This document shows, in pieces, positions 41,291-56,514 of a stretch of 64,000 nucleotides of DNA. This stretch comes from Pseudoalteromonas undina. Lineage in GTDB: Bacteria; Pseudomonadota; Gammaproteobacteria; Enterobacterales; Alteromonadaceae. Made by a program: the position numbers and the translations under genes. Position 1 is the first letter of the stretch. Each line of letters begins with the position of its first letter. The DNA lies in assembly GCF_000238275.3 (NCBI RefSeq), contig NZ_AHCF03000003.1, positions 1,054,001-1,118,000 on the forward strand. Reading direction: 5' to 3'. The notes beneath the pieces were generated by a model that was not told the DNA's origin, did not search any database, and saw only the letters and a program-made list of their open reading frames with translations.

Positions 41291-41629
41291 ATGATTTTTT
41301 ATATTATTGGGTTAAGTACGCTTGTTATTATTTTGTGTGTGGCGCTTTATGTGATTTACAGCAATGTACGTAAGAGCCGAGTAAGAAAGTCAAAAGAATA
41401 TAATGTGTTATTTGATAAAGACACCATCATTGATGATCTTATTGCTCAACTTAGCGAGAAAAACCAAACCCAAGAAAACCAGGAAAAAACAATTAAAGGC
41501 AAACAAGAGATCCTTGCAACATTTATAGATTTGCATCGATCGGGTAGTTTTTGTGCGCATTTAAGCGAACAAGAAATTACGTATTTTGTTAAAAAGAAAC
41601 TAAACATGGAGAGTACTAAAAATGGATAG
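41291..41629 (+). CDS. Small membrane-anchored protein upstream of the band-7 gene
   Basis: Not recognised. 112 residues: one N-terminal transmembrane helix (IIGLSTLVIILCVALYVIY), then a basic, helical, Gln/Glu/Lys-rich cytoplasmic part (AQLSEKNQTQENQEKTIKGKQE). Its end overlaps the start of the band-7 gene by eight bases, so the two are translationally coupled and probably act together. The 425 bases upstream hold no other gene that I can support. Confidence 0.65.
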   Translation: MIFYIIGLSTLVIILCVALYVIYSNVRKSRVRKSKEYNVLFDKDTIIDDLIAQLSEKNQTQENQEKTIKGKQEILATFIDLHRSGSFCAHLSEQEITYFVKKKLNMESTKNG

Positions 41630-42965
41630 CGAGCAACAAACAGTCGCTGAGGCAAAAAACACTTCATTTATGGCGCGTTTTGGTCGTCGTAATGTGATTT
41701 TACTAACATCCGTTGTTGTGGTGTTAGCAGTTATTGCAACATTAACTTCGCAGGTTATTTCATGGAATGAAGCCGATGAACGGTTAGTTCATCAGTCAGC
41801 TTTTACTGGTAATTTAACGGTAATAAATCAAGCGGGCCCTTACTTAAAAGCATTTGGTACCACATCGGCCTATAAAAAAGTTATTTCAATTAACTTTACC
41901 GGCGATAGCAGTGCAACAGCGAGTGCCATTGTACCACTCATTCCTATTCGATTCTTAGATACCACGACAGGTGGCGCCAGAGGAGTATCACGTTTTAGAT
42001 TACCAGGTAATGTACCGGCAAGTGAGTCGGGCGCTTTACGTGGATTATTAAAAATTCATGAAGAATTTGGCTCCCAAGAAACCCTGATATCTAATCTTTT
42101 AATGCGTGCCACTACAGAAAATGTAAAAGCGTCGGCACGTATGATGTCGGTTGAGCAACATTACTCAGGTGGTAATGGTCAATTAAGCCAAGATTTTTCT
42201 GATCAACTGACTAATGGCATTTTTGTTACTGAGCAAATTATTAGTACTGGCGAGCGTGACAAGTCTGACGATTTAAGTAATTTAAGTAAGCAACAACGCG
42301 TTACCATTAATATAAAGAAAGATGCTGAAGGTAAGCCGCTGCGTAATGCACCTATTTTAGGCTCTTACGGCATCACGGTGGTTGATGCGAGTATTATTGA
42401 TATTGATTACGAAAATAAGGTAAATGCGCGCTTAGAGGCGCAAAAGCAAGCTGCAGCAGATGAAGCGCTTGCAAGACAAAACCTTAAAAAGGCAGAGCAA
42501 CAAGCACGTACAGAAGTTGCATTAGGCGAACAAGCGATTGCAAAGCAAAGAGCTGAGTCTGAAAAGCTAAAAATTAAAGAGCAAATTGATGCAGAGCGAA
42601 TAAAAGCCAATGCGATTATTTCTGCACAACAGCGTGTTGCAGTGAAGGCTGAGCTTGCAAAAGAGCAAGAAGAAATTTTAAAACAGCAACGCTTAGAAGC
42701 TTTAGGCATGGATGTATTAGCTGAAGCACGTTTACGCGCAAAGTCAGCAGCACTTGATCCTAAATATGTGTTTGATGAAACACTTAAAGCAGAAGTTAAA
42801 ATTCAAACGGCTTTATTTAATAGCTTAGGTAACAGCCGCTTAGTGCCTGAAATTGTTATAGGTGCGGGTCAAGGCGAACAAAACAATGGCTCTGAATTTA
42901 TGCGTTTGTTGGCTGCAGATGCGGCTTTGAGTCTTAAAAAGCGTTTAGAAAAAGAGAAAAAGTAA
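41622..42965 (+). CDS. SPFH/band-7 (prohibitin-like) membrane protein
   Basis: 447 residues. A transmembrane helix (VILLTSVVVVLAVIATLTSQV) is followed by a divergent SPFH-like domain. A long Ala/Glu/Lys/Gln coiled coil comes next (roughly residues 265-365; EAQKQAAADEALARQNLKKAEQQA), then a C-terminal RLVPEIVIGAG and a charged tail. The arrangement is typical of prohibitin/stomatin/HflK-like scaffolds that assemble rings in the inner membrane. The usual NfeD-like partner is absent; instead the small membrane protein upstream overlaps it. A specific role cannot be given. Confidence 0.78.
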   Translation: MDSEQQTVAEAKNTSFMARFGRRNVILLTSVVVVLAVIATLTSQVISWNEADERLVHQSAFTGNLTVINQAGPYLKAFGTTSAYKKVISINFTGDSSATASAIVPLIPIRFLDTTTGGARGVSRFRLPGNVPASESGALRGLLKIHEEFGSQETLISNLLMRATTENVKASARMMSVEQHYSGGNGQLSQDFSDQLTNGIFVTEQIISTGERDKSDDLSNLSKQQRVTINIKKDAEGKPLRNAPILGSYGITVVDASIIDIDYENKVNARLEAQKQAAADEALARQNLKKAEQQARTEVALGEQAIAKQRAESEKLKIKEQIDAERIKANAIISAQQRVAVKAELAKEQEEILKQQRLEALGMDVLAEARLRAKSAALDPKYVFDETLKAEVKIQTALFNSLGNSRLVPEIVIGAGQGEQNNGSEFMRLLAADAALSLKKRLEKEKK

Positions 42966-42981
42966 ACGTTAAAAATCATTA

Positions 42982-43015
42982 AAAAGCCCTAGCTTTAATT
43001 GCTAGGGCTTTTTTT
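42982..43015. terminator. Bidirectional terminator after the band-7 gene
   Basis: A 12-bp stem AAAAGCCCTAGC (42982-42993) / GCTAGGGCTTTT (43001-43012), with further T residues. Confidence 0.92.
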
Positions 43016-43041
43016 GTGGTATCGCTTTTTAAACGGTGAGA

Positions 43042-43287
43042 TTAAAATTTAGGGCACAAAGCGTGGCTAAAGCCTTTTTCGGTTAGCAAAAAAGCGGCGC
43101 TTGGCGTCGAAAATATATATTCTTCATGAAGAAGAAAGGCGATTGTTCCTTTTATTTGCTCACCTTGATGATCTGAGGCATCGCTAATTAATTGTTCAGG
43201 ATCTAACTGACTTGGAGTTGGAAAGTTATTATAAAGGTGTTTAAAAATTAACATAGCAATCGTGTTAAAGGTATCGTTATTTTTCAT
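43042..43287 (-). CDS. Small hypothetical protein
   Basis: 81 residues, not recognised. GAGGA lies nine bases before the start on the minus strand, so translation is likely. The sequence is compact and looks helical (FNTIAMLIFKHLYNNFP, DHQGEQIKGTIAFLLHEEYIF, AAFLLTEKGFSHAL). The last part resembles the wing of a winged-helix fold (EEYIFSTPSAAFLLTEKG), a weak hint only. Convergent with the band-7 gene. The 348 bases between it and the porin gene hold no other gene. Confidence 0.6.
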   Translation of the reverse strand: MKNNDTFNTIAMLIFKHLYNNFPTPSQLDPEQLISDASDHQGEQIKGTIAFLLHEEYIFSTPSAAFLLTEKGFSHALCPKF

Positions 43288-43635
43288 TTTTTGAGCGTCC
43301 TCAATTTATATATGTAGCAGCAAACTGGCTGTTTTAAATATGATTTCTCAAATAATAACACATTAAAAATAGGTACATGATCATCCTGCTACTTTTTAAG
43401 CTTTAATTTTGCAAGCTACTGCTTTTATTTATTAAAATGATGATTAATTGTCATGCTTACCCTGCTAAAAAGTAGTTTGTGTGTTGCTGGTGTGTTGCGC
43501 AAAATCACAAAGTGTAATTGAAGAGTTGTAAAAATACGTTATCATTGTAAAACAACATGTAAAATCAAGCAGGTACTTAGCTCACGCTGACCAAGTTCGA
43601 GTTAATAATATCAACAAGGCAAGCAAGGACAAATT

Positions 43636-44934
43636 ATGACACCTATGAAACCTTTAGCACTAGCAGTGGCTATGGTTGTTTTTTCACATCAGGCACATGC
43701 AGATACAGATCTTGATAAAGTAAAGCAGCAATTAAGCAGCTTACAAAAACAAGTGGAAATGCTGCAAAAGCAACTTGCGAAAGCAGAGCAAAAAAGTGAA
43801 AAATCAATCGAACGCACCATTGAAGTGAAAGAAGATACAGCTGAAGTTAAAGTAGCTAAACATGAACACAAGCCTCAGGGAATTAAAGTTGGTGGTGCTG
43901 TTCGAACCAACTACAGCCATACTTCGTATGATGACGATAATAAAAATCGCGGCGGCGATTTTGACTTTGATATTTTTCGCTTAAATTTCTCAGGCGACGT
44001 TGGTGATGTAAAATTAAACGCTGAAATTCGCTTTTTTGATTATATGACCGCTGTTAAATACGCTTATGCAGCTTACGATTTTGCTGATGATTGGCAAGTT
44101 CAAGCAGGTATTACCAAGGTTCCTTTTGGTAACTGGCCATACAATTCACATAACTACTTTTTCAGCACTAACTATTATGTTGGCCTTGAAGACGACCACG
44201 ATTTAGGGGTGTTATTTAAGCGTAAGATTGCTGATAACTGGCAGCTTGATTTGGGCTTTTTCAAAAATGATGAATTAGGTGGTGTTGATGGTTATGTAGA
44301 TAACCGCAGCGATCGCTATTCTTACGATATTGTTGGCTTTAGAGAAGCTGGGGATGGTGTTTATGCCGAGCCAACTAATGCTATAGGCGAGTACAATACG
44401 TTCTCAGGTCGTTACGGCTACCACCTAGAACATGAAGGTGGTAAAACTGAAATAGGTGTGTCGGCACTCGCTGGTGGCTTGCATGATGGTGTTGACCGCG
44501 CAGGAGACTACAACGCGTGGGCATTACATTTAAACAGTAATATGGGCCCTTGGAACTTACAACTTCAACACGGTGAATACAACTACGACATTGATAACGT
44601 AAACCGTATTGCTGTGGGCGCTTACTCGTTTTACGACAGCATGGCGGCAGAGGCAACAATGTCGAGTGCAAACGTAGCATACAGCGTACCGGTACAATGG
44701 GGCGCGGTAACAAACTTACAGTTTTATAACGACTATAGTGCTATTTACGACAAATCAGACAACAGCAGAGATACCTGGATGAACGTAACCGGTTTCTCGG
44801 TAGCTGCTGGTGGTTTATTTACTTACTTTGACTTAGTTCATGGTAAAAATATGCCATTTGTTGGTGGTTCATTAGCGGGCGATAGCAGCGAAACTGAGCG
44901 TCGCTTTAACATTAATATTGGCTATTACTTCTAA
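43636..44934 (+). CDS. Outer-membrane porin with N-terminal coiled coil
   Basis: 432 residues. A signal peptide ends near HQAHADTD. A Lys/Gln/Glu coiled coil follows (residues about 25-65; QQLSSLQKQVEMLQKQLAKAEQK), then a beta-barrel rich in aromatic and acidic residues, ending in the outer-membrane Phe (NINIGYYF). The layout is like OprO/OprP-type or Shewanella-type porins with trimeric coiled-coil stalks. AAGGA precedes the ATG. It stands directly before the LysR-BCCT-Rieske cluster and may admit its substrate, but it has its own transcript and the link is by position only. Confidence 0.85.
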   Translation: MTPMKPLALAVAMVVFSHQAHADTDLDKVKQQLSSLQKQVEMLQKQLAKAEQKSEKSIERTIEVKEDTAEVKVAKHEHKPQGIKVGGAVRTNYSHTSYDDDNKNRGGDFDFDIFRLNFSGDVGDVKLNAEIRFFDYMTAVKYAYAAYDFADDWQVQAGITKVPFGNWPYNSHNYFFSTNYYVGLEDDHDLGVLFKRKIADNWQLDLGFFKNDELGGVDGYVDNRSDRYSYDIVGFREAGDGVYAEPTNAIGEYNTFSGRYGYHLEHEGGKTEIGVSALAGGLHDGVDRAGDYNAWALHLNSNMGPWNLQLQHGEYNYDIDNVNRIAVGAYSFYDSMAAEATMSSANVAYSVPVQWGAVTNLQFYNDYSAIYDKSDNSRDTWMNVTGFSVAAGGLFTYFDLVHGKNMPFVGGSLAGDSSETERRFNINIGYYF

Positions 44935-44946
44935 ACCAATATTCAA

Positions 44947-44975
44947 AGCACACGTCTACATATTGGGCGTGTGCT
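44947..44975 (+). terminator. Possible terminator after the porin gene
   Basis: An 8-bp stem AGCACACG (44947-44954) / CGTGTGCT (44968-44975). The following TATATGTCTT is a poor T tract. Confidence 0.45.
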
Positions 44976-45129
44976 TATATGTCTTCACAAACTAATTAAT
45001 TACCCACACTAAAACCCTTACCAAATTTGTAATTGATTAACTCAATGTTTAAAAATATATTCAGTACTTACTTTTACCTTCAATGGATTGGTTATTAGTT
45101 TCTTTGATAGAAACGCAGTAGGAAATTAT

Positions 45130-46056
45130 ATGAAAATTAGTCCATTGCCACCGCTAAACAGTCTAGTCGCATTTGAAGCATCCGCTCGACACCTAAGTTT
45201 TACTCTTGCAGCAAATGAGCTTAACGTTACTCAAGGTGCGATAAGTCGTCAAATACGACAGTTAGAAGAGTATTTAGGTAAAGCCTTATTTACTCGTGCA
45301 AGCCGCAGTATTCATTTAACCTCAGCTGGTCTGCAGTATTATCAGTCTATAAGTCGCTCCTTATTGGATATTGCTGATATAACAGGAGAGGTAAAAAAAT
45401 GGCAAGGGGATAAAAAAGTAACCGTAGCGACAACTAATGCAATGGCATCCTTGTGGTTATTGCCAAAAGTTGCTGAGTTTCAAAATCAATATGATGACAT
45501 TGATTTAAGAATATTAGCATCTGATAATGTAGTTGATTTAAACCGTTTAGAATGCGATTTAGCATTGTTTTTTTGTCGCACGCCTCCAGCTAATATGAAG
45601 GTGACCACTTTGTTTTGCGAAGAAGTGTTTCCAGTTTGTAGTCCTGGCTATCTTGAAAAAATTGGTAATCCGAACGATCCGAAAGATATTTTTAATAAAA
45701 CAATTTTATTTTTAGATGAAACACAAATGGGATGGGTTAATTGGGATGAGTGGTTTGCAGGAGTAGGACTTGAGCAGATAGCTCCTAAAAGCCGCATTAA
45801 CATAAATAATTACCCCATGTTGTTGCAAGCCTCAATTAATGGTCAAGGCATTGCATTAGCGTGGGGGTCTCTGGCTGATGAATACTTACAAAGTGGTGCA
45901 TTAGTGCGTCCAACCGAGCATGTATTAGCCACTGAATCTAAGTTTTCTTTACTAGAGCCAGATAACGGTGGCCGCATACCTGCGAGTGTAAAGTATTTTA
46001 GAGAGTGGCTTTTAACACAACTTCCTGAAGAAGTAGGCGATACCGGTTTAGTATAA
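45130..46056 (+). CDS. LysR regulator, GcvA-like, of the Rieske oxygenase cluster
   Basis: 308 residues from the ATG at 45130, which follows AGGAA; the frame is open 14 codons further upstream without a matching site. The helix-turn-helix (FTLAANELNVTQGAISRQIRQLEEYLG) and PLPPLNSLVAFEASARHLSFT start are of the GcvA/choline-sulfate regulator type. A substrate-binding domain follows. It lies convergent with the BCCT gene and between the porin and the catabolic operon, so it is the likely local activator. The effector is probably the imported substrate. Confidence 0.88.
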   Translation: MKISPLPPLNSLVAFEASARHLSFTLAANELNVTQGAISRQIRQLEEYLGKALFTRASRSIHLTSAGLQYYQSISRSLLDIADITGEVKKWQGDKKVTVATTNAMASLWLLPKVAEFQNQYDDIDLRILASDNVVDLNRLECDLALFFCRTPPANMKVTTLFCEEVFPVCSPGYLEKIGNPNDPKDIFNKTILFLDETQMGWVNWDEWFAGVGLEQIAPKSRININNYPMLLQASINGQGIALAWGSLADEYLQSGALVRPTEHVLATESKFSLLEPDNGGRIPASVKYFREWLLTQLPEEVGDTGLV

Positions 46057-46071
46057 ATTACATCGCAATAA

Positions 46072-46099
46072 AAAAACCCTGCTAAATAGCAGGGTTTTT
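46072..46099. terminator. Bidirectional terminator between the LysR and BCCT genes
   Basis: A 12-bp stem AAAAACCCTGCT (46072-46083) / AGCAGGGTTTTT (46088-46099) with a 4-base loop. Confidence 0.92.
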
Positions 46100-46123
46100 G
46101 TTTATTAGTCTTATTATATTGAT

Positions 46124-47788
46124 TTAGTGCTCCACAGGGCCATCGAGTTTTTCTTTACACGGATGTACGTGTTGCGGCAACATTGCCCATGGCTTTGGTT
46201 CACGGCGAATGCTATAAAACAAGGTAACACCCATCATTAAAATAAATATAGAAATAGGGAAGCCAATGATGATTGACGCATACTTTATTGCTTGCAGGCC
46301 TCCTGCATAAATAAGTACCCATGCAATAAGTGCAATAACTATACCCCATAAAATACGAATAGAGGTTGGTGGTTCAGTATCACCTGCAGCATCTAAAATA
46401 CACAATATTAAGGTGCCCGAGTCGGCTGAGGTTATAAAGTAAGTAGCAAGTAAGATACAGGCTAATACACTCAGTAATTTACCTAATAAGTTACTGTCTA
46501 AATTATCAAATAAGGTAAAGAGGGCACGTGTACTATCTGCTTTGGTTGCTTGTAATACAACACCACCACTAAAGGGTTCTGCGTTTGTTTCTGTAACTTG
46601 GTTTTGTGTTACAACGGTTTGTTGTTGTGCAGCAATACGTTCGTTTTGCTCCATTTTTAAGGCGCTACCACCAAATACGGAAAGCCAAATAAAGGCAATA
46701 ACAGTTGGGGCTACCAAAGCACCACCAATAAGTTCGCGAATGGTACGTCCCTTTGAAATTCGCGCAATAAACATACCTACAAACGGTGCCCAAGTTAACC
46801 ACCATGGCCAATAAAAAGCGGTCCAAGAGCTTTGCCATCCTGAGTCATTTTGCGAATCAGTCCACAGCCCCATCGAAATTAAATTTTGTACATAATTCCC
46901 TGATGTTTCCATAAATACATTTAAAATATAACGGGTCGGACCCACTGCAAGTACTATCAATACTAATAGTAACGACAGCAACATATTCCATTGTGAGAGT
47001 AGCCGTATTCCTCTACCAACGCCCGATAAAACCGAGCCTACAGCAATAGTACATAGCACAATAATAAGCACAGTTTGAGTAACAAGGCTAACCTCTATCC
47101 CAAACGTTTGTTGTAATCCAGAGTTAATTTGAATAACCCCAAGGCTCAGGGTTTGCGCGATGCCGAAGGCTGTAACGGCTACCGTGATAATATCGGCAAC
47201 ATGTCCTATAGGGCCATAAATTCTATCGCCCACTAGTGGGTGTAAAATAGAGCGAAAGGTAAAAGGAAGGCCTTTACGGTAAGAAAAATAAGACAAGGCT
47301 AAGGCAACAATTACAAAAAGCGACCACGGATGGAGTCCCCAATGGTAAAAAGTAAGCTGCATTGACATTGACGCTGCTTCATTGGTTAACCCCTCGGTGA
47401 ATGGGTTTGCAGCATAGTGCCACATGGGTTCTGCTACAGACCAAAAAACCAGTCCAATACCCATCCCCCCAGAAAATAACATGGCTATCCATGCCCAAAA
47501 ACTAAATTCAGGCTGATCGTCGTCATTTTCGCTCAGTCGAATATGGCCGTATCGACTTACCATCAAATAAAGTAAAAAACCAACGACTAAAGTTACTAAG
47601 CCAATAGAAAACCATTTCATATTGTAGAGTAAAAAAGTCGAAAGGCTTTCAAAATACTGCCCTGCTTTATTTGCAAGTATGACTATGAATAAAATAAAGG
47701 CGATTAGAATTACCTTCGATGCGATGGTCACCGTCGGATTTAATCCCTTTAAAAAACCAGACTTAGCCAAAATTACGGATTTTTTCAT
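46124..47788 (-). CDS. BCCT-family betaine/carnitine/choline-type transporter
   Basis: 554 residues and 12 hydrophobic segments. Family motifs: SGGMGIGLVFWSVAEPMWH (glycine-rich helix 3) and the Trp-rich helix 8 segment TAFYWPWWLTWAPFVGMFIARISKGRTIRE. ATYFITSADSGT follows in helix 10. These transporters take up zwitterionic quaternary amines (betaine, carnitine, DMSP, ectoine). The substrate residues are not decisive. It diverges from the Rieske operon across a 363-base gap, which argues for a catabolic rather than osmotic role. The loop EQNERIAAQQQTVVTQNQVTE is an unusual hydrophilic insertion between helices 8 and 10. Confidence 0.93.
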   Translation of the reverse strand: MKKSVILAKSGFLKGLNPTVTIASKVILIAFILFIVILANKAGQYFESLSTFLLYNMKWFSIGLVTLVVGFLLYLMVSRYGHIRLSENDDDQPEFSFWAWIAMLFSGGMGIGLVFWSVAEPMWHYAANPFTEGLTNEAASMSMQLTFYHWGLHPWSLFVIVALALSYFSYRKGLPFTFRSILHPLVGDRIYGPIGHVADIITVAVTAFGIAQTLSLGVIQINSGLQQTFGIEVSLVTQTVLIIVLCTIAVGSVLSGVGRGIRLLSQWNMLLSLLLVLIVLAVGPTRYILNVFMETSGNYVQNLISMGLWTDSQNDSGWQSSWTAFYWPWWLTWAPFVGMFIARISKGRTIRELIGGALVAPTVIAFIWLSVFGGSALKMEQNERIAAQQQTVVTQNQVTETNAEPFSGGVVLQATKADSTRALFTLFDNLDSNLLGKLLSVLACILLATYFITSADSGTLILCILDAAGDTEPPTSIRILWGIVIALIAWVLIYAGGLQAIKYASIIIGFPISIFILMMGVTLFYSIRREPKPWAMLPQHVHPCKEKLDGPVEH

Positions 47789-48151
47789 GTGTGTGCTCCG
47801 TTGTCTTTTTTGTTGTTGTTAAATAAGTGGTAAGAAATTAAAAAATTAACCGGCAATTTACAAATGATTAATCCTCATCAATCCATGAGCTTTGCTTATG
47901 CGATGTTACCGCTTATTTATAACCAGTAAGCAATATTTATATTATTGCACTCTTAATCATTACAAAAACTCATGAGTGAGATGCTAAATTATCGTTTGTT
48001 TAGTGCTTTGTTGTTAATCAAAATCAACGCATCTGATAACAGAATGTTGTTACGGGTTTGGGGCGTGAGGTTAATGTTAAAACTATGGGTTTTAATTATT
48101 GAACTTTGCTCTTTAAATTTTTTTAAAACACACACCGTTCGGAGAATGAGC

Positions 48152-49339
48152 ATGGGCACTGTAAAACAAACAATAATTCCTATTAAGCAAATTGATCGTG
48201 TACTAAACCCGATACATGAAGCGACAGGTATGCCTAACGAGGCGTATACCAATCCTGAGTACTTTAATTTTGAACGTGATCATGTTTTTAGTAACACATG
48301 GGTGTGCGTTGGTTTTGCATCAGATTTAATCAAAAACGGTTATGTTATGCCAATTGATTTTATGGACTTACCTTTATTAATGATGAAGAGTCGCCAAGGC
48401 GAAGTGCAGGTATTTCATAATGTGTGTAGCCATCGAGGGATGAAGTTAGTACATGAAGCAGGAGAAGTGCAAGGCATGATCCGCTGCCCTTATCATTCAT
48501 GGACCTATGATTTAAATGGAAGCTTAAAAGGCACTCCACATTTAGGTGGCATCGGTAAGCATAACGATGAACGTTTTGCATGTGAAAAGCATGGGCTAAA
48601 AGCAATCCGCTCAGCTATTTGGATGGATATGGTATTCATTAATCTATCTGGCGAGGCGAGTTCTTTCGATGAACATATAGCTCCTTTAACACAGCGTTGG
48701 CAAGAGTTTTTAGGTGACGATGGTTTGAGTTTATTACGTCGTGCAAATATGGGCGGACACTTAGAAATTGAAGTAAAAAGTAACTGGAAGTTAACCATAG
48801 AAAACTTCTGTGAAGCCTATCATTTACCTTGGGTACATCCAGCGTTAAATACTTATTCTAAATTAGAAGATCACTACAATATCATGTTCGATGAGCGTTT
48901 TTCTGGTCAAGGTAGCTATAAATATAACCTTTCTGATACTGCTGGTACACATTTACCAAAATTCCCAAGCTGGCCTGAGGAAAAGCTACGCCATGCTGAA
49001 TATGTTGCTTTATTTCCAAATGTACTTATTGGTATTCAAGCTGATCACGCTTTTGCAATGATGATCGACCCAATTAGTACAGATAAAACTATCGAACGTT
49101 TACGTATTTTCTATATTAGTGATGAGGCAACTAAAGATGAGTATGCGGCGTGTCGTACTGCAACACTTGAATCATGGCGTGTCGTGTTTGGTGAAGATAT
49201 TGGCGCAGTTGAAGGAATGCAGCAAGGACGGTACTCACCTGGTTTTGGTGGTGGGGCTTTTTCACCTGAAATGGATACACCAACACACTTCTTCCAAATT
49301 TGGCTTGCCAAACAAGTGAAATCTGTGACGGAGGCTTAA
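48152..49339 (+). CDS. Rieske non-heme iron oxygenase, alpha subunit, quaternary-amine type
   Basis: 395 residues from MGTVKQ at 48152, seven bases after GGAG; the longer frame from 47972 is mostly leader. The Rieske [2Fe-2S] ligands are Cys92-x-His94 (VCSHRG) and Cys112-x2-His115 (RCPYHSW). The mononuclear iron site is ENFCEAYHLPWVH (His224, His229). The residue that bridges to the neighbouring Rieske centre is Glu221, not Asp, as known for carnitine and betaine/choline-type monooxygenases. It is the first gene of a five-gene operon with no beta subunit, so probably a homotrimeric alpha-only enzyme. The exact substrate is unknown. Confidence 0.9.
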   Translation: MGTVKQTIIPIKQIDRVLNPIHEATGMPNEAYTNPEYFNFERDHVFSNTWVCVGFASDLIKNGYVMPIDFMDLPLLMMKSRQGEVQVFHNVCSHRGMKLVHEAGEVQGMIRCPYHSWTYDLNGSLKGTPHLGGIGKHNDERFACEKHGLKAIRSAIWMDMVFINLSGEASSFDEHIAPLTQRWQEFLGDDGLSLLRRANMGGHLEIEVKSNWKLTIENFCEAYHLPWVHPALNTYSKLEDHYNIMFDERFSGQGSYKYNLSDTAGTHLPKFPSWPEEKLRHAEYVALFPNVLIGIQADHAFAMMIDPISTDKTIERLRIFYISDEATKDEYAACRTATLESWRVVFGEDIGAVEGMQQGRYSPGFGGGAFSPEMDTPTHFFQIWLAKQVKSVTEA

Positions 49340-49341
49340 TT

Positions 49342-50760
49342 ATGACTCATTATCTTAACTTCATTAATGGCCAGTGGTGTGATTCTCACACTCATATTTC
49401 GGTAATAAACCCTGCGACAGCTCAGGAATATAGCACGATTGCAAGTGCCAGTGTTGATGATGCAAACAATGCGATGCTAGCCGCCAGACAATGTATAAGC
49501 CGTGGACTATTGAGCGATGTACGCCCAGCTGTGCGCACAACGTGGATGCTTGATGCAGCAAAAGCTATCAAAGAGATAGCTGATGAAGGTGCTTTAGCTC
49601 TGTGCAGAGAAAACGGTAAAACCTTAGCGGATGCAAAAGATGAATTCTTAGAGGCTGCTCGTTATTTTGAATACTATGGCGGCATGGCTGACAAACTCGA
49701 AGGTACGTCGATTCCTTTAGGTAAAAACTATATTGATTTTACGCAATATATCCCTATGGGTGTATCAGTACAAATTGTACCTTGGAATTTCCCAGTTTCA
49801 ATCTGTGCTCGCTCTTTAGCTCCAGCGCTGGCGGCGGGTAATGCAGTAGTCATTAAGTCACCCGAAATTTCGCCTGTTGGTATGGTGTATTTAGTCAGAG
49901 CACTCGAAAGTGTTGGCTTTCCAAGAGGCGCTATTAACCTGTTGTGTGGTAAGGGTTCAGTAGTGGGGAGCCACCTAGTTGAGCATAATGATGTTAATCA
50001 AATTGTTTTTACCGGTTCAGTGCCCACTGGGCAACGTATTCTAAAAGGTGCAGCTGAGCGTGCAACACCTTCTGTAATGGAATTGGGTGGTAAATCTGCA
50101 GCTATTGTTCTTAAAGATGCGGCTACTGAGAAAGTTATCAGCAGTGTGCAAACAGGTATTTTCTTTAATGCTGGACAAGTGTGCTCTGCAATGTCGCGTT
50201 TACTGGTAGATAAAGCTCGTTACGAAGAGATTAAATCGGCAGTGGTTACTATGGCTGAAAATTTAGTGATCGGCTCAGGTGAAGAGCAGGCTGATTTAAC
50301 GCCCGTGGTTTCTCAAGCGCAACAAATCAGTGTATTGGCAATGATTGAACAAGCTAAAAAAGAGGGGGCAACTATTTTATGTGGTGGCTATGCTCCTGAT
50401 TTGGCAGGTTACTATGTTGCTCCAACTGTGATCGAAGCAACCCCTGATATGTCCATATCTCAACAAGAAGTATTTGGTCCTGTATTGGTTATTATGCCAT
50501 TTGAAGATGAGCAACAGGCTGTAAAAATAGCTAATGGCACTGAATTTGGTTTAGTAGCAGGCGTATTTGGTGAAGCACTTAACCAAACATTACAAGTGGC
50601 TCAGCAACTTCGTGGTGGACAAGTTTTTATAAATGAATGGTTTGCCGGTGGCATAGAAACGCCATTTGGCGGAGTTGGATTGTCTGGCTTTGGCCGAGAA
50701 AAAGGTCAAGAAGCCATCTACAGCTACATGCAAACACGCAATATTGCTATACGTTTATAA
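49342..50760 (+). CDS. NAD(P)-dependent aldehyde dehydrogenase
   Basis: 472 residues from the ATG at 49342, preceded by GGAGG. Aldehyde dehydrogenase superfamily: IVPWNFPVSI, the NAD-binding FTGSVPTGQRIL, catalytic Glu in MELGGKSAAIV and catalytic Cys in FFNAGQVCSAMSR. EVFGPVL and late PFGGVGLSGFGREKG complete the pattern. It resembles betaine-aldehyde/semialdehyde dehydrogenases. In this operon it would oxidise the aldehyde released by the oxygenase or by ring opening. Confidence 0.93.
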   Translation: MTHYLNFINGQWCDSHTHISVINPATAQEYSTIASASVDDANNAMLAARQCISRGLLSDVRPAVRTTWMLDAAKAIKEIADEGALALCRENGKTLADAKDEFLEAARYFEYYGGMADKLEGTSIPLGKNYIDFTQYIPMGVSVQIVPWNFPVSICARSLAPALAAGNAVVIKSPEISPVGMVYLVRALESVGFPRGAINLLCGKGSVVGSHLVEHNDVNQIVFTGSVPTGQRILKGAAERATPSVMELGGKSAAIVLKDAATEKVISSVQTGIFFNAGQVCSAMSRLLVDKARYEEIKSAVVTMAENLVIGSGEEQADLTPVVSQAQQISVLAMIEQAKKEGATILCGGYAPDLAGYYVAPTVIEATPDMSISQQEVFGPVLVIMPFEDEQQAVKIANGTEFGLVAGVFGEALNQTLQVAQQLRGGQVFINEWFAGGIETPFGGVGLSGFGREKGQEAIYSYMQTRNIAIRL

Positions 50761-50861
50761 CGAGTGGCAACGACTCAGTTTATAAAACTTACGGTTTATC
50801 TATTTGTACTTTCTGCAGTAGATAACCCACAGGGTTAAATCCAAAGTATTAGGATAGAGAA

Positions 50862-52268
50862 ATGAAAAAATGGCTCTGTATTATTTGTGGCCTCATTTAC
50901 GATGAGGCCCAAGGTTGGCCTGCTGATGGTATTCCTCCAGGCACCCTTTGGGAGGATGTACCACAGGATTGGGTATGTCCAGATTGTTTAGTGGGCAAAG
51001 CCGATTTTGAAATGATCGAAATAAGTGAAGGTGAAGTAACTGAAGATGAAGTAACTGAACCAGCTGCTGTTCAACACACTCGTGTTTCTGAGACCATTGT
51101 TGATGAACCGCAAGGCCCAATTGTTATCATTGGTAGTGGCCACAGTGGTTATCAAGTAGCGGCTGCATTACGTAAACAATCATCAACCGTAGCTATTACC
51201 GTATTCACCGCTGATGACGGCGCACTTTACAGCAAACCTGCTCTTTCGAATGCTTTTGCAATGGGGAAAAGCGCAGCTGATTTACAAAACGAAGCCGCAC
51301 TTGAGTGGGAGCAGCGTCTTAATATTCGTGTTTATCCGCATACACGTGTTGAACGAATAGATGCAGATAATCACTCTCTCATCACTAGCATAGGGCGTTA
51401 TAAGTATGGGCGTTTAGTACTAGCGACAGGTGCGTCAGCAATTAAGATTCCAATTGCTGGAGACGCCTCAGAAGTACTAAGTGTGAATGATTTGCACGAT
51501 TATGCACAATTGAGAGCAAAACTTGATAGTAAAAAGCGAGTTGCTATTTTAGGCGATGGGTTAATTGGCTGTGAATTTGCAAATGACTTGAGCGCCAAAG
51601 GCTATGAAGTGAGTGTCATCGGTTTAGGGCAGTGGCCAATGTATCGACTGATCCCACAAGTAGTCGGCGAAGCCTTACAGCAAAAGTTAGCAGACTTGGG
51701 GGTATCATGGTATTTAGAAGATAGTATCAACCGTATTGAAGTCAACGACTCTGTTTCATTATTACACTTAAATAGTGGTCAAGTGATTGAAGTTGACGTG
51801 GTGCTATCTGCGGTAGGATTAGTGCCAAATGTAACGCTTGCTGAGCAAGCTGGATTAGAAGTTGAGCGTGGTATTAAAGTAAATGACGATGGCCAAACCA
51901 GTCGTCCTGCTATATTTGCATTAGGTGACTGTGCGCAAACATCACAAGGATGGCAGCCATATATTGCACCCATAAATCAAATTCTACCTGCTTTAGTCAA
52001 TAGCCTGTTGGGCAATGTAACTAACGCCAAATTTTTGCCGAGCCCCGTTATTGTTAAAACCCCTATTATGCCGTTAACTATTTTTCCTGTACCACCTATG
52101 GCGCAAGGTCAGTGGCATATAAAACAACAAGGTGAAGAGTTAGTGGCTGTATTTAATGATGCTAATGAGCAAATACTTGGTTTTGCTCTGTTAGGTAAAC
52201 AAGTACAGGCTAACCGCAGTTATTGGTTAGAGCAAATAAGTTTAAATAACCTAGCAGCAACGGAGTAA
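50862..52268 (+). CDS. Rubredoxin fused to NAD(P)H-dependent rubredoxin reductase
   Basis: 468 residues in two parts. Residues 1-55 are a rubredoxin with iron ligands Cys6, Cys9, Cys39 and Cys42 (CIICG, CPDC). An acidic linker (SEGEVTEDEVTE) follows. Residues from about 88 are an FAD/NAD reductase of the AlkT/NorW type: IVIIGSGHSGYQVA (FAD), VAILGDGLIGCEFA (NAD) and FALGDCA. The natural reading is a one-polypeptide electron chain from NAD(P)H through FAD and rubredoxin to the Rieske oxygenase, replacing the usual ferredoxin reductase. Single-chain Rd-reductases exist, but this pairing is uncommon. Confidence 0.9.
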   Translation: MKKWLCIICGLIYDEAQGWPADGIPPGTLWEDVPQDWVCPDCLVGKADFEMIEISEGEVTEDEVTEPAAVQHTRVSETIVDEPQGPIVIIGSGHSGYQVAAALRKQSSTVAITVFTADDGALYSKPALSNAFAMGKSAADLQNEAALEWEQRLNIRVYPHTRVERIDADNHSLITSIGRYKYGRLVLATGASAIKIPIAGDASEVLSVNDLHDYAQLRAKLDSKKRVAILGDGLIGCEFANDLSAKGYEVSVIGLGQWPMYRLIPQVVGEALQQKLADLGVSWYLEDSINRIEVNDSVSLLHLNSGQVIEVDVVLSAVGLVPNVTLAEQAGLEVERGIKVNDDGQTSRPAIFALGDCAQTSQGWQPYIAPINQILPALVNSLLGNVTNAKFLPSPVIVKTPIMPLTIFPVPPMAQGQWHIKQQGEELVAVFNDANEQILGFALLGKQVQANRSYWLEQISLNNLAATE

Positions 52269-52271
52269 AAT

Positions 52272-53588
52272 ATGATTCATTTACCGCATGATGATAATAC
52301 CTGTGGCTGGTATAACGCTTTACCAAAGCAGCCTAAACAAGCACTTTTAACGGGGGCACAAAAGGCTGACTACGTGGTTTTAGGCGCTGGTTTTGCTGGT
52401 TTAGCTATGGCACGCCGTTTAGCTGAGCACGCGCCAAATGCACGAATTGCCCTAATTGATGCACAGCGAATAGGCCAAGGTGCATCAGGGCGTAATTCAG
52501 GGTTTGTGATTGACTTACCGCATAAATTCTCTCTTGAGCACCCAGATCCTGCACATAAGCAAAGATTATTGTCACTTAACCGTTTCGCGATTGATCAGCT
52601 TGCTTCTTTAGTTGCTAAATACAACATTGATTGCCAGTGGTCGGCTGCGGGTAAATACCAAGGTGCAGTAGGCGCTAGGGGTGAAGCTTACCTTGATCAC
52701 TTCGAACATCTTATGACCGATTTAGGCGAACCATTTGAGCATGTTACTGGCACTGATTTGGCAAAAGTATTAGGCACTAATTACTACAGCCGTGCTATTT
52801 ACACCCCGGGGGGGTACTTGGTTCAACCCGCAGCACTAGCCTGTGGTTTAGGTGCTAACTTACCAAAAAACATTGAGGTATTTGAGCATTCGCCTATTGT
52901 GCGCTTGGAGAAAGAGCAAGGAGGGTGGCTGTTGCAAGGAGAGCACGGCAGCATTAAAACACCTCAGTTATTACTGGGTACAAGTATTTTTACTCGTGAG
53001 TTTGGTTTTTTAAAAAATCGATTACTTCCTGTAATGACTTTTGCTAGTTGGACCCGACCGCTAAACGATAAAGAAATGCAGCAGTATACAGGTTTACTTG
53101 ATTGGGGACTTACACCCGCTGATCACGCTGGCACAACGCTTAGGATGACCGCTGATCGTCGTATTATTATTCGTAATACCTACCAACATGTAGCTAAATA
53201 TGGCAACAGCATTAGTGATAAGTTGCGTCAGGAAATTCAAAACGATCATCGCAAAGTATTTTTAGCTCGCTATCCACAACTAGTCGATGTGCCTTTTACA
53301 CATTCGTGGGGAGGCACCTATGCTATTTCGCGAAATTTCACTAATTTCTTTGGTCAACTCGATGATGGAGTGTTTGCCAGCGCCTGTGATAACGGTGTGG
53401 GGGTTGCTTGGGGAACTGTGTCGGGTACTTTGCTTGCTGATTATGTTATGGGGGCAACATCGCAGTCGCTTGATGATATTCAGCAGGTAACGGGTATGCC
53501 AAGTTTAAATCCACCAGAGCCATTGCTTGGTTTAGGAGTAAAAAGCCGAATTAAACTTGCCAAATGGCAAAGTAGGAGTGAAATATGA
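52272..53588 (+). CDS. DadA/DAO-family FAD-dependent oxidoreductase
   Basis: 438 residues, D-amino-acid oxidase fold. FAD-binding DYVVLGAGFAGLAMARRL begins near residue 34, IGQGASGRNSGFVID follows, and the C-terminal part has ACDNGVGVAWGTVSG. The family oxidises amines and N-methyl amino acids (sarcosine, N-methylproline, N-methylglutamate, glutamylputrescine). Here it could demethylate or deaminate a product of the oxygenase. Starts three bases after the rubredoxin-reductase stop, with GGAG upstream, and overlaps the cupin gene by four bases. Confidence 0.9.
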   Translation: MIHLPHDDNTCGWYNALPKQPKQALLTGAQKADYVVLGAGFAGLAMARRLAEHAPNARIALIDAQRIGQGASGRNSGFVIDLPHKFSLEHPDPAHKQRLLSLNRFAIDQLASLVAKYNIDCQWSAAGKYQGAVGARGEAYLDHFEHLMTDLGEPFEHVTGTDLAKVLGTNYYSRAIYTPGGYLVQPAALACGLGANLPKNIEVFEHSPIVRLEKEQGGWLLQGEHGSIKTPQLLLGTSIFTREFGFLKNRLLPVMTFASWTRPLNDKEMQQYTGLLDWGLTPADHAGTTLRMTADRRIIIRNTYQHVAKYGNSISDKLRQEIQNDHRKVFLARYPQLVDVPFTHSWGGTYAISRNFTNFFGQLDDGVFASACDNGVGVAWGTVSGTLLADYVMGATSQSLDDIQQVTGMPSLNPPEPLLGLGVKSRIKLAKWQSRSEI

Positions 53589-53935
53589 AACAGGTTAAAT
53601 TAGTAGACAGTAAATTACTCGACTTTAATGTACGTGGAGATACGCCTGGCATGGCCTACGTGGCTCGTGCACTTAGCCCTGAAATATCACCAAATATTGG
53701 TGTTGGTTTTGCGAAATGGGAAGGTGCAAAAGTAGCATGGACAGTACTTTATGATGAAGTTGTATTTGTTATAGAAGGCTGCTTCGAGTTAACCGCAAAT
53801 GGCGAAACTCATCATGTTAAGCCAGGGCAAATGCTCTGGATACCAGAAGGAACAGAGCTGGTATATGGCGGACATGCATTGTTTGGTTATGTTGTTCATC
53901 CAGGTAATTGGAAAGAGATACATGGTATAGCCTAA
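53585..53935 (+). CDS. Small cupin-domain protein (EutQ-like)
   Basis: 116 residues. Cupin beta-barrel with VVFVIEGCFELTANGETHHVKPGQMLWIPEGTEL; the usual HxH of motif 1 is replaced (YDEVVFVIEG), so metal binding may be reduced. The EutQ/ethanolamine-utilisation cupin family is the closest I recognise. Last gene of the operon, start overlapping the DAO gene stop (ATGA). It may act as a small dioxygenase, isomerase or binding protein for a pathway intermediate. Confidence 0.78.
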   Translation: MKQVKLVDSKLLDFNVRGDTPGMAYVARALSPEISPNIGVGFAKWEGAKVAWTVLYDEVVFVIEGCFELTANGETHHVKPGQMLWIPEGTELVYGGHALFGYVVHPGNWKEIHGIA

Positions 53936-53965
53936 CTGCCATTTTAAGTGTTCAAATTAGTTCCT

Positions 53966-54000
53966 AAGCCCTCTAACCAACCATTTGAGGGCTTTTTTAT
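53966..54000 (+). terminator. Terminator of the Rieske operon
   Basis: AGCCCTC (53967-53973) pairs with GAGGGCT (53987-53993), followed by TTTTTT. Confidence 0.88.
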
Positions 54001-54168
54001 TGGCCGTTTTTTAGGTTGCATTAGTAATGAAAAATAAAAGCTTAAGCCACAAATAGTTAATTTTAAAAACAGGTAAAATATTGAATATTGAGTAATCAAC
54101 TTCTAGTATAAAAGTTCAAATGGAATAAAATAAATAATCCATATAGCTTAGCTGGAGGCTAGACATCG

Positions 54169-55011
54169 ATGATTGTAGTTAATGAGCAGGTATTATCAGA
54201 TGTAAATAAAAACTTTATTATTCCACCAAGACCGCAAATCTTAAATGATCTTGAATTATTAGCATCTGCACAAGAGCCCTCGCTTTCAGACGCCGCAGAA
54301 ATCATCGCTAAAGATGTTGCTATTGCATCCGCTATTTTAAAGATAGTTAATTCACCCGCTTATGGCTTAGTTCGTAGTGTGTCAAATATTAAACAAGCCA
54401 TTATGTTTTTAGGTTGGAATGGCATTGAAGCTTTAGTTCCTAGCCTAAAGCTAAAGCAAATGTTCGCCCAAAATGAGTGCTGTATTAGCCTTGAACGTTT
54501 TTGGGATACCGCCTCAGAAATTGCTGATGTAAACATGATTATTGGACAACGTCTAAATAATGTCCCCGTTGAGTACTTGTATACGCTTGGTTTGTTTCAT
54601 GATTGTGGCATTGTGCCAATGGCAATCAAATTTGATAATTACGTGAGTGCTTTGCATACTTCAAATAATACCCATAAAGAAAGCTTGATAGATATAGAAG
54701 AGCGTTTATATGGAACTAATCATGCCACTGTGGGTTATTACTTAGCGACCAGCTGGCATTTACCCGTAGATATTTGTCAGCTTATTTTACGTCATCACGA
54801 TTTGAGCATGCTAAGTAACATAACTGGAAGTAACCAACAATTGTGTTACAGCGTTTTAAAAATGTCTGAGAATCTGGTTAATTGTGTTTTACGCGGCGAC
54901 ACCACTAAAGATTGGGATGATATAGAAAAACACGTTTTAGCAACATTAAATATGTCAGAAGACGATTATATTGATCTACAAGAAGAGGTGATTGACTTTT
55001 TGAACTGCTAA
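54169..55011 (+). CDS. HDOD-domain signalling protein
   Basis: 280 residues, almost entirely an HDOD domain: PPRPQILNDLELL, ILKIVNSPAYGL, ISNIKQAI-type SVSNIKQAIMFLGWNGI and YTLGLFHDCGIVPMA. Active HD phosphohydrolase residues are partly present (FHDCG), but HDOD proteins are usually regulatory rather than catalytic. Found in motility, stress and competence control. No partner domain or adjacent signalling gene is seen. GGAGG lies ten bases before the ATG. Confidence 0.88.
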   Translation: MIVVNEQVLSDVNKNFIIPPRPQILNDLELLASAQEPSLSDAAEIIAKDVAIASAILKIVNSPAYGLVRSVSNIKQAIMFLGWNGIEALVPSLKLKQMFAQNECCISLERFWDTASEIADVNMIIGQRLNNVPVEYLYTLGLFHDCGIVPMAIKFDNYVSALHTSNNTHKESLIDIEERLYGTNHATVGYYLATSWHLPVDICQLILRHHDLSMLSNITGSNQQLCYSVLKMSENLVNCVLRGDTTKDWDDIEKHVLATLNMSEDDYIDLQEEVIDFLNC

Positions 55012-55150
55012 TCGCTTTTTAACAGCTTAAAATCTATAGGTTAGTTTTTTTCACTTATTGGTTTGTTTTTAATCGTTTGTCGAGATTAAGTAAACACTCT
55101 AAAGTTTAGTTGTCGGCAACAAGCACGACTAACCAAATAGGAAATTAATC

Positions 55151-55561
55151 ATGAAACGCTCACTTATCAAAACCATCGCTCTTGGCTCTTTATTAACTTG
55201 CTCAGCTGCTGTAATGGCTGATCAAAGTGATTACAAGTTAATGGTTATTGAAGAGGCTAAAACAGCCCCTCAAGAATTCGAAGTTGCATTTAACGATTGT
55301 GCATTAAATGTAAAATCAAAAAATTATAGCCAAGCTGAAGAAATTTGCTCAAAAGCAATTACTTTATTACAACAAAGCACTGGCCCACGTTTTAAAGTAC
55401 GTGAGCTGACTTCATTTGCTTTAAGTAACCGTGGTGTAGGACGTTTAATGGCTAAAAACGAAACAGCTGCATTATCAGACTTTTACGAAGCACAACAAAT
55501 GTCAGGTAACGAGTTAGTGTCGCACAATTTAACGCGCGCTAAGCAAGATCTCGCGCTGTAA
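55151..55561 (+). CDS. Small secreted TPR-like protein
   Basis: 136 residues with a signal peptide (LIKTIALGSLLTCSAAVMAD). The mature part has two helix-turn-helix units resembling TPR repeats (CALNVKSKNYSQAEEICSKAITLLQ and ALSNRGVGRLMAKNETAALSDFYEAQQM). It is probably periplasmic. Pseudoalteromonas-type genomes carry several such small exported proteins; its function is unknown. Closed by a strong terminator. Confidence 0.75.
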   Translation: MKRSLIKTIALGSLLTCSAAVMADQSDYKLMVIEEAKTAPQEFEVAFNDCALNVKSKNYSQAEEICSKAITLLQQSTGPRFKVRELTSFALSNRGVGRLMAKNETAALSDFYEAQQMSGNELVSHNLTRAKQDLAL

Positions 55562-55577
55562 TATTTATTACCGATTC

Positions 55578-55610
55578 AAAAAGCCCATGCTGTTTTAGCA
55601 TGGGCTTTTT
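55578..55610. terminator. Bidirectional terminator between the TPR-like and LysR genes
   Basis: A 13-bp stem AAAAGCCCATGCT / AGCATGGGCTTTT around 55579-55609, with A and T flanks; convergent genes share it. Confidence 0.92.
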
Positions 55611-55623
55611 GCGTTTATTAGAC

Positions 55624-56514
55624 TTAAACACTATTTAGAATAATTTGGGTCAGCTGTTTCAGCCCTTTACCTTTGTTAGTTATTTTCCATGCAAGGTATA
55701 AGTCTTGAGTTGGGCGTGGTTCGGTAAGTTCCACAACATGCAGTTTGTTAGCTTTTATATGCTCAGCAATAAGGTTTACAGGTAAATAACCAATGCCAAT
55801 AGCGGATAAAATAGCGGTTATTTTTTGGCTTACAGAACTTACATAAAAACGTTGATTACCTTCGATTAAGTTAGCTGACCACGGAATACCTTGCTTTGCT
55901 GAGTCATGCACTATAACCGTGGTGTATTGACCGAGTTCGCTGGGCTCAATGGGGGTTTTTAGTAGCGCTAACGGGTGGCTAGGGTGAACCACCAGAACAT
56001 TTTGAATATCAGCTATTTTTACCGCTCTGATCCCCTTTTGATTAGGTACAGGGGCCGGTGCGCCAATCACTAAGTCAACGTCATCCTCAATTAAAGCCTC
56101 CCAAGTGCCATTAAGTACTTCCTCTTTAATGTCTATCTCGATATTTTTATGCTCATTTAAAAATAGCTGTAGATTTTTGAATACGTCACTTATGTCAAAA
56201 ATAGAGTCATAGGCAATACGTATCCGTGGCTCCCAGCCATTAGCTATGGTTTGTGTTTGCTCCGATAAATTATTTATAGCATTGAGTACTTTACGCCCCT
56301 CGGTCAGTAAATGTTTACCTGCAGGGGTTAAAACGGCACGTCGACCTTGGCGCTGAAACAAGGTTACATTTAATTGCTCTTCAAGTTTATTAACAATATA
56401 CGATAAGGCTGAGGGTACTTTATTAAGTTGCTCTGCAGCGGCTGCGTAACTGCCACGATGCTCAATGGCGTCCAGTACCAGTAAAGCTTCTATGCTTATA
56501 GGGGGTGTATTCAT
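55624..56514 (-). CDS. LysR regulator, YhaJ-like
   Basis: 296 residues from the ATG at 56514 (MNTPPISIEALLVLDAI); the frame is open to 56562. Helix-turn-helix GSYAAAAEQLNKVPSALSYIVNKLEEQL, with the substrate-binding domain following. It resembles E. coli YhaJ, whose genomic neighbours are also yqjF, yqjG and yhaK. In E. coli YhaJ activates yqjF in response to quinone-like compounds. The divergent position here, 124 bases from yqjF, argues for the same role. Confidence 0.85.
   Translation of the reverse strand: MNTPPISIEALLVLDAIEHRGSYAAAAEQLNKVPSALSYIVNKLEEQLNVTLFQRQGRRAVLTPAGKHLLTEGRKVLNAINNLSEQTQTIANGWEPRIRIAYDSIFDISDVFKNLQLFLNEHKNIEIDIKEEVLNGTWEALIEDDVDLVIGAPAPVPNQKGIRAVKIADIQNVLVVHPSHPLALLKTPIEPSELGQYTTVIVHDSAKQGIPWSANLIEGNQRFYVSSVSQKITAILSAIGIGYLPVNLIAEHIKANKLHVVELTEPRPTQDLYLAWKITNKGKGLKQLTQIILNSV

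Follow-up and report, generated by a model that had tools for sequence, protein, structure and literature searches.

A predicted LysR-controlled operon for an N-methylated zwitterion, with homarine as candidate substrate, in Pseudoalteromonas undina

A five-gene Rieske oxygenase operon in Pseudoalteromonas undina, together with neighbouring genes for a LysR-family regulator, a BCCT transporter and a porin, very likely constitutes a LysR-controlled catabolic unit for a zwitterion with a quaternary nitrogen. The locus lies in a 64,000 bp stretch (positions 1,054,001 to 1,118,000 of contig NZ_AHCF03000003.1, RefSeq assembly GCF_000238275.3), referred to here as the window, and the evidence was computed from gene content, conservation, a shared operator, a block of DNA present or absent among relatives, fold and key residues. 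The substrate is not fixed by any feature of the sequence. The single most likely compound is homarine (N-methylpicolinate), a tentative choice rated a little below an even chance. We slightly favour the statement as a whole, namely that this is a unit for a quaternary-nitrogen zwitterion, that homarine is its likeliest substrate and that it would then be a gammaproteobacterial hom operon.

All eight genes named in the original prediction were found in place, and family-model scores bore out the families it had given them (Table 1). The Rieske oxygenase, aldehyde dehydrogenase, rubredoxin/rubredoxin reductase fusion, DAO-type and cupin genes form the tight, single-strand operon that had been described, with the LysR, BCCT and porin genes adjoining. 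Taking ATG 49342 as the start of the aldehyde dehydrogenase gene, the successive gaps are 2, 101 and 3 bp, and the DAO-type and cupin genes overlap by 4 bp. The start of the Rieske gene is best placed at ATG 48152 (395 aa) rather than at the start of the open reading frame at 47972, because a GGAG is found at 48141–48144 and homologues are about 395 aa long. The most likely start of the LysR protein is ATG 45130. The protein had been called GcvA-like; the family stood, but its GcvA score (274.7 bits) is just below the curated cut-off of 288. Scans for terminator-like and promoter-like sequences gave no excess over shuffled sequence (10 found against a mean of 9.5, and 20 against 28.6, respectively), and we therefore propose no sigma-70 promoter and base the terminators on place and stem length. 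The probable operon terminator is missing from the scan list, as its 13-base loop exceeds the limit of the scan.

Table 1. Features of the locus in window coordinates
Feature	Position	Strand	Basis or remark
Operator-like palindrome for LysR, ATGATTAATTGTCAT, 196 bp upstream of porin	43440..43454	.	Motif match and relatives
Porin, 432 aa, PF07396 (Porin_O_P) 26.1 bits	43636..44934	+	Operator upstream; kept in relatives without operon
Terminator-like stem-loop, 13 pairs, 3' of porin	44946..44976	+	Stem length, place
Present/absent block, 9.1 kb: LysR, BCCT, five-gene operon	44979..54092	.	Comparison with relatives
LysR-family regulator, GcvA-like, 308 aa from ATG 45130 (ORF opens 45088)	45130..46056	+	Family models
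Terminator-like stem-loop, 12 pairs, between convergent LysR and BCCT genes	46072..46099	.	Stem length, place
BCCT-family transporter, 554 aa; motifs HWGLHPWSLF and WPWWLTW	46124..47788	-	Family models
Operator-like site ATGATTAATCCTCAT, divergent promoter	47864..47878	.	Motif match
Operator-like site ATTACAAAAACTCAT, in register with ATGATAAAAACTCAT of L007 and others	47959..47973	+	Motif match, conservation
Rieske non-haem iron oxygenase, 395 aa, quaternary-ammonium (group V-like) type	48152..49339	+	Models, key residues, similarity
Aldehyde dehydrogenase, 472 aa; best model betaine-aldehyde dehydrogenase, below its cut-off	49342..50760	+	Family models
Rubredoxin/rubredoxin reductase fusion, 468 aa	50862..52268	+	Family models
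DAO-type FAD amine/amino-acid oxidase, 438 aa; glycine oxidase/sarcosine oxidase fold	52272..53588	+	Family models
EutQ-like cupin, 116 aa	53585..53935	+	Family models
Probable operon terminator, stem AGCCCTC/GAGGGCT then T-run	53967..53998	+	Read by eye

The five enzyme genes were found together in 49 of 80 related loci. In 46 of the 80 they share the same order and strand, which puts the grouping beyond chance, and the LysR gene is present in 44 of these 46 complete ordered loci. Within the genus, the Rieske gene was found in eight of 108 genomes, including that of the window, and the family as a whole occurs in both marine and soil bacteria. The loci of Phaeobacter and related bacteria have only the LysR, Rieske and aldehyde dehydrogenase genes and one BCCT gene in common with the window locus, at low identity. 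The hom genes are reportedly distributed in SAR11 or Rhodobacterales as well, but a link to them was rejected as support, since the Rieske relatives found in 56 of 385 alphaproteobacterial genomes mostly have other neighbours. Four of these 56 carriers have near-complete genomes of only 1.2–1.4 Mb, with relatives that are 41–43% identical and stand among other neighbours. Like the thin overlap with Phaeobacter, this counts against the explanation favoured here.

Two relatives lack the block (L114 in genome G096 and L115 in G101) and a third has it (L116 in G068). In the two block-less relatives, collinearity with the window runs to 44978 or 45005 and resumes at 54093, with 58 and 34 bp between, and the porin gene is retained in both. 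The term island, as originally applied, thus holds for the genes from LysR to cupin, while the porin gene lies outside the block but carries an operator. The ends of the block showed no clear direct or inverted repeat and no open reading frame listed within 40000–58000 was read as a transposase, and an island formed by a mobile element was therefore rejected. We lean towards deletion rather than insertion, because the porin gene and its operator persist in G096, which has no operon, and because the porin is also paired with the operon in L007 and G005.

The sequence ATKA-N7-TCAT was found in 24 of 25 divergent BCCT/Rieske promoters, from which the pattern was itself partly derived. Among 12 held-out divergent promoters, a set that includes related genomes, it was found on the plus strand in nine, and all 12 contained at least one match on either strand. 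No match with up to two mismatches was found before the Rieske gene of L036. Words identical to the ATTACAAAAACTCAT site recur in Marinobacterium promoters. The operator upstream of the porin gene is in the same place in G096 and G068, at -327 in G005 and, as ATTA-N7-TCAT, at -178 in L007; it was not found in G101. In L118 and five Acinetobacter loci, the search for porin sites used gene starts that had been extrapolated on the basis of partial matches. A loose scan of the whole window gave nine matches against 6.28 expected, and for this reason only placed and conserved sites were used. A 16-base version of the operator is weak in the window (12 of 16 positions, equalled in four of 200 shuffles). 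The LysR protein would bind the ATGA-N7-TCAT sites before the porin, BCCT and Rieske genes, making the porin the probable outer-membrane channel of the regulon.

The Rieske protein contains the CxH...CxxH motif and a 2-His-1-Asp iron site, with roles assigned by alignment to CntA, and C93-H95, C113-H116, H225, H230 and D350 (numbering from 48149) are invariant in 35 sequences. The predicted bridging Glu was confirmed as Glu221 of the 395-aa protein, and 119 of 120 homologues have Glu and one has Asp at this place; the residue count by locus was 54 of 55, taken over 55 loci because the ORF caller missed the Rieske reading frame in 25 of 80. At the place of CntA Y203, 112 of the 120 homologues have Tyr and eight have Phe, as does the window protein. 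According to the available part of PMC7948474, clade Va enzymes have an aromatic residue here for a pi-cation contact and clade Vb demethylases have Asn, so the window family shows the clade Va feature. The Cys206-x-x-Cys209 pair of CntA is absent, replaced by Ala/Ser/Gly and Leu in 120 of 120 homologues. Mutation of the pair is described, in the part of PMC10952381 available, as lowering CntA activity, and the pair is said there to occur in some group V enzymes.

When a Rieske profile was searched against the PDB, only three proteins (five sequences) were found at E ≤ 1e-30, namely CntA (147.5 bits), Stc2 and the putative dioxygenase 3n0q. A single-sequence search gave CntA at 111.6 and Stc2 at 97.1 bits, with the next two proteins, both of aromatic type, at 91.7 and 89.2 bits. 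The profile search and fold ranking point to CntA and Stc2 as the closest to the Rieske protein. A tree recovered the window family as a single group with strong support (30 rows, 99/99), set off from CntA and Stc2 by a long branch and with long branches to all references; this tree, which was built without a characterised aromatic-ring enzyme and may contain false joins, was used only for the unity of the family. Group V membership is thus assigned from residues and similarity, as aromatic-type enzymes score close behind CntA and the branch is long and separate. Neither the Rieske nor the DAO-type protein reaches any curated NCBIfam cut-off, and the score with the GbcA model (NF058607) was 123.5 bits against a cut-off of 670.

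The transporter exceeds the cut-offs for PF02028 (555.3 bits; cut-off 27) and TIGR00842 (455.1; 407.55) and keeps the aromatic cage motif. It is below those of the named substrate classes glycine betaine (538.8; 650), choline BetT (413.7; 695) and carnitine CaiT (227.3; 541). The DAO-type enzyme, from the family of AmaA, glycine oxidase and sarcosine oxidase, scored 134.5 bits with the L-pipecolate oxidase AmaA model (NF050086; cut-off 600) and a sequence search of the PDB gave no relative at E ≤ 0.001. SoxA/MgdC-family proteins were found in all 25 carriers without the DAO gene and in 17 of 25 carriers with it, and no SoxA/MgdC-type large subunit was found in the genome of the window (best 147.8 bits; cut-off 1164). 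The operon DAO enzyme may replace a MgdC/SoxA-type enzyme there. This contrast is weak, as 15 of the 25 carriers with a DAO-less locus have a DAO relative elsewhere (E ≤ 1e-60, 33–53% identical), three of these loci (L068, L069 and L079) end soon after, and descent was uncontrolled.

The import and oxidation of a quaternary-nitrogen zwitterion, as originally proposed, is supported by the PDB profile, the bridging Glu, the pi-cation aromatic residue, the BCCT cage and the porin operator. In the pathway that we infer, the porin would pass the substrate across the outer membrane and the BCCT protein would import it. NADH would supply electrons, by way of the flavin and rubredoxin domains of the fusion protein (the probable electron donor), to the Rieske oxygenase, which would hydroxylate a carbon adjacent to the positive nitrogen, so that a C-N bond opens and an aldehyde forms. 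The aldehyde dehydrogenase would convert this to an acid, and the DAO-type flavoenzyme, with the cupin as a putative partner, would oxidise the remaining N-methyl amino acid; heterotetrameric enzymes of the SoxA/MgdC family may perform this step in carriers without the DAO gene. The ring-oxidation chemistry originally suggested is not contradicted. Conversion of homarine to N-methylglutamate costs one carbon, and the absence of an obvious decarboxylase or deformylase among the operon genes counts against homarine. The carriers also include soil Pseudomonas, for which homarine is not an obvious food, and this likewise counts against it.

Carnitine and glycine betaine, both listed originally as possible substrates, have become less likely. 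For carnitine or gamma-butyrobetaine, a CntA-like cleavage would give trimethylamine and a semialdehyde for the aldehyde dehydrogenase, whose gene is directly 3' of the Rieske gene, and CntA is the best PDB match and shares the iron-site motifs, bridging Glu and aromatic place. This is nonetheless improbable: identity to CntA is 21–22%, the Cys pair needed for full CntA activity is replaced throughout, the CaiT score is low and it is not obvious what the DAO enzyme would do with trimethylamine. The reductase is also of rubredoxin type, whereas CntB has a ferredoxin cluster (PMC7948474, part available). GbcA-like demethylation of glycine betaine is very improbable, even though GbcA is the best named Rieske model, relatives of the Rieske family adjoin Sox genes in some genomes and corrinoid methyltransferase genes occur in L080; the score is far below the cut-off, SoxA/MgdC was not found in the genome and an aldehyde dehydrogenase would be superfluous.

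Also unlikely is a route of the stachydrine type, acting on a cyclic betaine such as proline betaine or pipecolate betaine. Here the Rieske enzyme would N-demethylate the substrate, the DAO enzyme would oxidise the cyclic amino acid in its N-methyl or free form, and the semialdehyde would be oxidised by the aldehyde dehydrogenase. Stc2 (24–25% identical) has the Asn of clade Vb demethylases at the aromatic place and the Cys pair, and all 120 homologues of the window family carry Tyr or Phe there and lack the pair. There is also a small probability that the same general chemistry serves a different zwitterion or pyridinium (trigonelline-like, trimethyllysine or another marine betaine), given a family that spans marine and soil bacteria, a sequence that names no substrate and DAO and Rieske proteins below all curated cut-offs. 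Against this, a 2026 study in Nat Microbiol, going by its title, reportedly describes a conserved homarine pathway in environmental bacteria, and five genes plus a regulator fit the name homABCDER, which we take to be that of the homarine operon of marine and other environmental bacteria. Neither a description of a bacterial homarine operon nor this name was found among literature listings and the opening parts of abstracts. The match to homABCDER, drawn from the number of genes that the name implies, is tentative.

Mgd is linked to the homarine pathway in the available part of PMC13390433, and the window genome differs in having no SoxA/MgdC-family protein. The naphthalene and o-xylene ring-hydroxylating oxygenases of Rhodococcus provide a precedent for electron transfer from rubredoxin to a Rieske oxygenase, with aromatic hydrocarbons as substrates; the part of PMC5209329 available does not mention a reductase fusion. 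A broader proposal, which we regard as possible but rather doubtful, is that rubredoxin-fed quaternary-nitrogen Rieske oxygenases with N[YF]CE[AS]YHL and without the Cys pair form a subfamily that opens a pyridinium ring or other zwitterion next to the nitrogen. It would have spread as a first-stage set of three genes (for the Rieske protein, the aldehyde dehydrogenase and the rubredoxin fusion), with a DAO-cupin second stage added notably in lineages without Sox/Mgd, and with one conserved LysR operator throughout.

The operon seems to be another instance of a pathway described recently. Marine bacteria rapidly draw down homarine and other N-methylated zwitterions, which are osmolytes of algae. 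In the available part of PMC12817926, homarine is among ten diatom metabolites cut to 2% or less of the starting amount within 10 h by Ruegeria pomeroyi. Because the regulon includes an operator, an importer and an outer-membrane channel, and because relatives that have and that lack the block occur naturally, the question of the substrate is directly testable. The operon is very probably a compact, optional gene set for consuming homarine or a similar small N-methylated compound from seawater, and it gives marker genes for tracing the flow of carbon and nitrogen from N-methylated zwitterions.

All genes named in the original prediction, which described a cluster for catabolism of an N-methylated zwitterion, were present (table below), and the cluster could be delineated more sharply. 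The five genes from the Rieske oxygenase to the cupin are successively spaced by 2, 101 and 3 bp and then overlap by 4 bp. Over the whole scan, terminator-like stems showed no excess relative to shuffled sequences. The window's Rieske gene was the only match to PF00848 (the Rieske oxygenase catalytic family) in the Pseudoalteromonas undina genome (4.03 Mb, four contigs). Outside the cluster, bases 56639–57091 encode an HvfX-like protein (73.7 bits against a cut-off of 80); HvfX is a maturation protein family for copper-binding RiPPs.

Features of the catabolic locus (positions within the window)
Feature	Position	Strand or location	Source
Porin	43636–44934	+	ORF list, family scans
Terminator-like stem, 13 pairs	44946–44976	downstream of porin	terminator scan
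LysR	45130–46056	+	ORF list, family scans
Terminator-like stem, 12 pairs	46072–46099	between convergent LysR/BCCT genes	terminator scan
BCCT	46124–47788	-	ORF list, family scans
Rieske oxygenase	48152–49339	+	ORF list, family scans
Aldehyde dehydrogenase	49342–50760	+	ORF list, family scans
Rubredoxin/rubredoxin-reductase fusion	50862–52268	+	ORF list, family scans
DAO-type FAD enzyme	52272–53588	+	ORF list, family scans
EutQ-like cupin	53585–53935	+	ORF list, family scans
Stem with T-run	53967–53998		found by eye in sequence

Two related genomes, G096 and G101, were collinear with the window up to 44978 (at 97%) and 45005 (at 94%), respectively, and collinearity resumed in both at 54093 (at 96% and 77–89%). 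Because both are collinear on the two flanks without it, the LysR-to-cupin segment is an all-or-none unit of approximately 9.1 kb. No repeats were seen at its ends. Both genomes retained the porin and, in G096, an operator-like site was also kept with regulator and operon gone, leaving an orphan regulon member. In another relative (G016), sequence matching 55028–55551, with a 136-aa ORF at 55151, was present in three copies within 7 kb.

Counting its own genome, the Rieske gene was found in 8 of 108 genomes of the genus and 13 of 369 of the class. Genome contigs were scanned with a 35-sequence Rieske alignment, and neighbours in the best 80 of 590 loci were identified by tblastn with the window proteins under preset identity limits. 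Among these 80, the aldehyde dehydrogenase was found in 67, a LysR relative in 61, the fusion in 60, the DAO enzyme in 50 and the cupin in 49. All five enzymes occurred together in 49, with the window's order and strand in 46; LysR was also present in 44 of these 46, and 33 had a BCCT gene sharing 45% identity or more. Gene loss across the best 80 was nearly nested (cupin/DAO, then fusion, then dehydrogenase), the exception being L063, with the fusion present and the dehydrogenase absent; contig ends account for some absences, e.g. in L013. Going by record titles, many of the carriers belong to marine genera, and soil Pseudomonas, Thauera and Cupriavidus also occur.

Other genes recurred near Rieske genes. 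An M24-family peptidase-like gene was found in 14 of the best 80 loci (e.g. L011:5344–6690); L097, which is annotated, assigns it to the Xaa-Pro peptidase family. A DUF3726 gene paired with a 540–600 aa hypothetical protein was seen in both gamma- and alphaproteobacteria (L095:15554–17892, L155, L097, L083 and L201), and L064 has the large gene alone. Distant Rieske relatives in L064 and L080 lie near Sox genes, and L080 also has trimethylamine methyltransferase-like, corrinoid activator-like and methylenetetrahydrofolate reductase-like genes, a betaine-demethylation type neighbourhood. Streamlined alphaproteobacterial genomes (L200 and L201, 1.3 and 1.2 Mb in one contig each, L202 and L203) carry Rieske relatives of 41–43% identity; DMGDH-like genes lie nearby in L200 and L201, while L203 has genes resembling ALDH and DAO. 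Two Acinetobacter baumannii records in the plasmid collection (3.7 and 4.0 Mb) look like misfiled chromosomes.

The motif ATKA-N7-TCAT, a candidate operator for a single regulon, was found in the divergent BCCT/Rieske promoter in 24 of 25 sequences (the window and 24 loci; mean 0.56, maximum 3 in 300 mononucleotide shuffles). At 36 loci a BCCT gene diverges at a distance of no more than 2 kb, and the 12 remaining promoters served as a check set, in which the core was on the + strand in 9 (shuffle mean 0.19, maximum 2) and on at least one strand in all 12. In Marinobacterium the second site of the window occurs again, letter for letter. LysR boxes follow the rule T-N11-A, which the motif fits. 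Near matches were upstream of the BCCT gene in 4/4 Pseudomonas loci examined where that gene lies elsewhere, and upstream of the LysR gene in 5/5 Acinetobacter loci examined. A palindromic copy lies 196 bp upstream of the window's porin. G096 and G068 have it in register, in G005 it sits at -327 and in L007 it is degenerate; it was sought upstream of the porin but not found in G101, L118, L021, L022 and five Acinetobacter loci.

The fusion protein scored highest against rubredoxin reductase 2v3a, and its first domain against the rubredoxin of 2v3b. Its constant neighbourhood suggests that it feeds the Rieske protein. Phaeobacter and Ruegeria relatives (43–45% identity) have a VanB-type reductase gene near the Rieske gene instead. 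Rubredoxin as electron carrier to Rieske oxygenases has precedent (PMC5209329). The BCCT protein (PF02028, 555 bits) is closest among solved proteins to a trimethylamine transporter, another BCCT protein, a choline transport protein and BetP. Mapped by motif, it retains the aromatic cage (W150, W155, W329, W330 and W333) and has Phe158 where glycine betaine carriers, according to PMC12093977, have Tyr.

The predicted general class of substrate is well supported, while homarine (N-methylpicolinate), the compound named, was a good guess and is still a guess; we tentatively favour it, at somewhat less than an even chance. A 2026 study in Nature Microbiology reportedly described an operon homABCDER that is carried by Rhodobacterales, SAR11 and SAR116 and yields N-methylglutamate and glutamate, and the five enzymes plus LysR here match the gene count of that name. 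PMC13390433 cites this study for a conserved homarine pathway and states that N-methylglutamate dehydrogenase participates in it. If homarine were oxidised beside its ring nitrogen in a CntA-like reaction, ring opening would yield an aldehyde for the dehydrogenase, and the DAO enzyme could finish the pathway by taking off the N-methyl group. One ring carbon is lost between homarine and N-methylglutamate, and no gene of the locus accounts for it. A stachydrine- or pipecolate-betaine-type route is unlikely, and we rate other zwitterions, and likewise something outside the general class altogether, at the same level. A carnitine-type route is less probable again, and glycine betaine is a very improbable substrate.

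If homarine is indeed the substrate, the locus would be a new carrier of an already published pathway. The modular build, the operator and a Rieske subfamily that lacks the Cys pair and is probably rubredoxin-fed may be new even to specialists.
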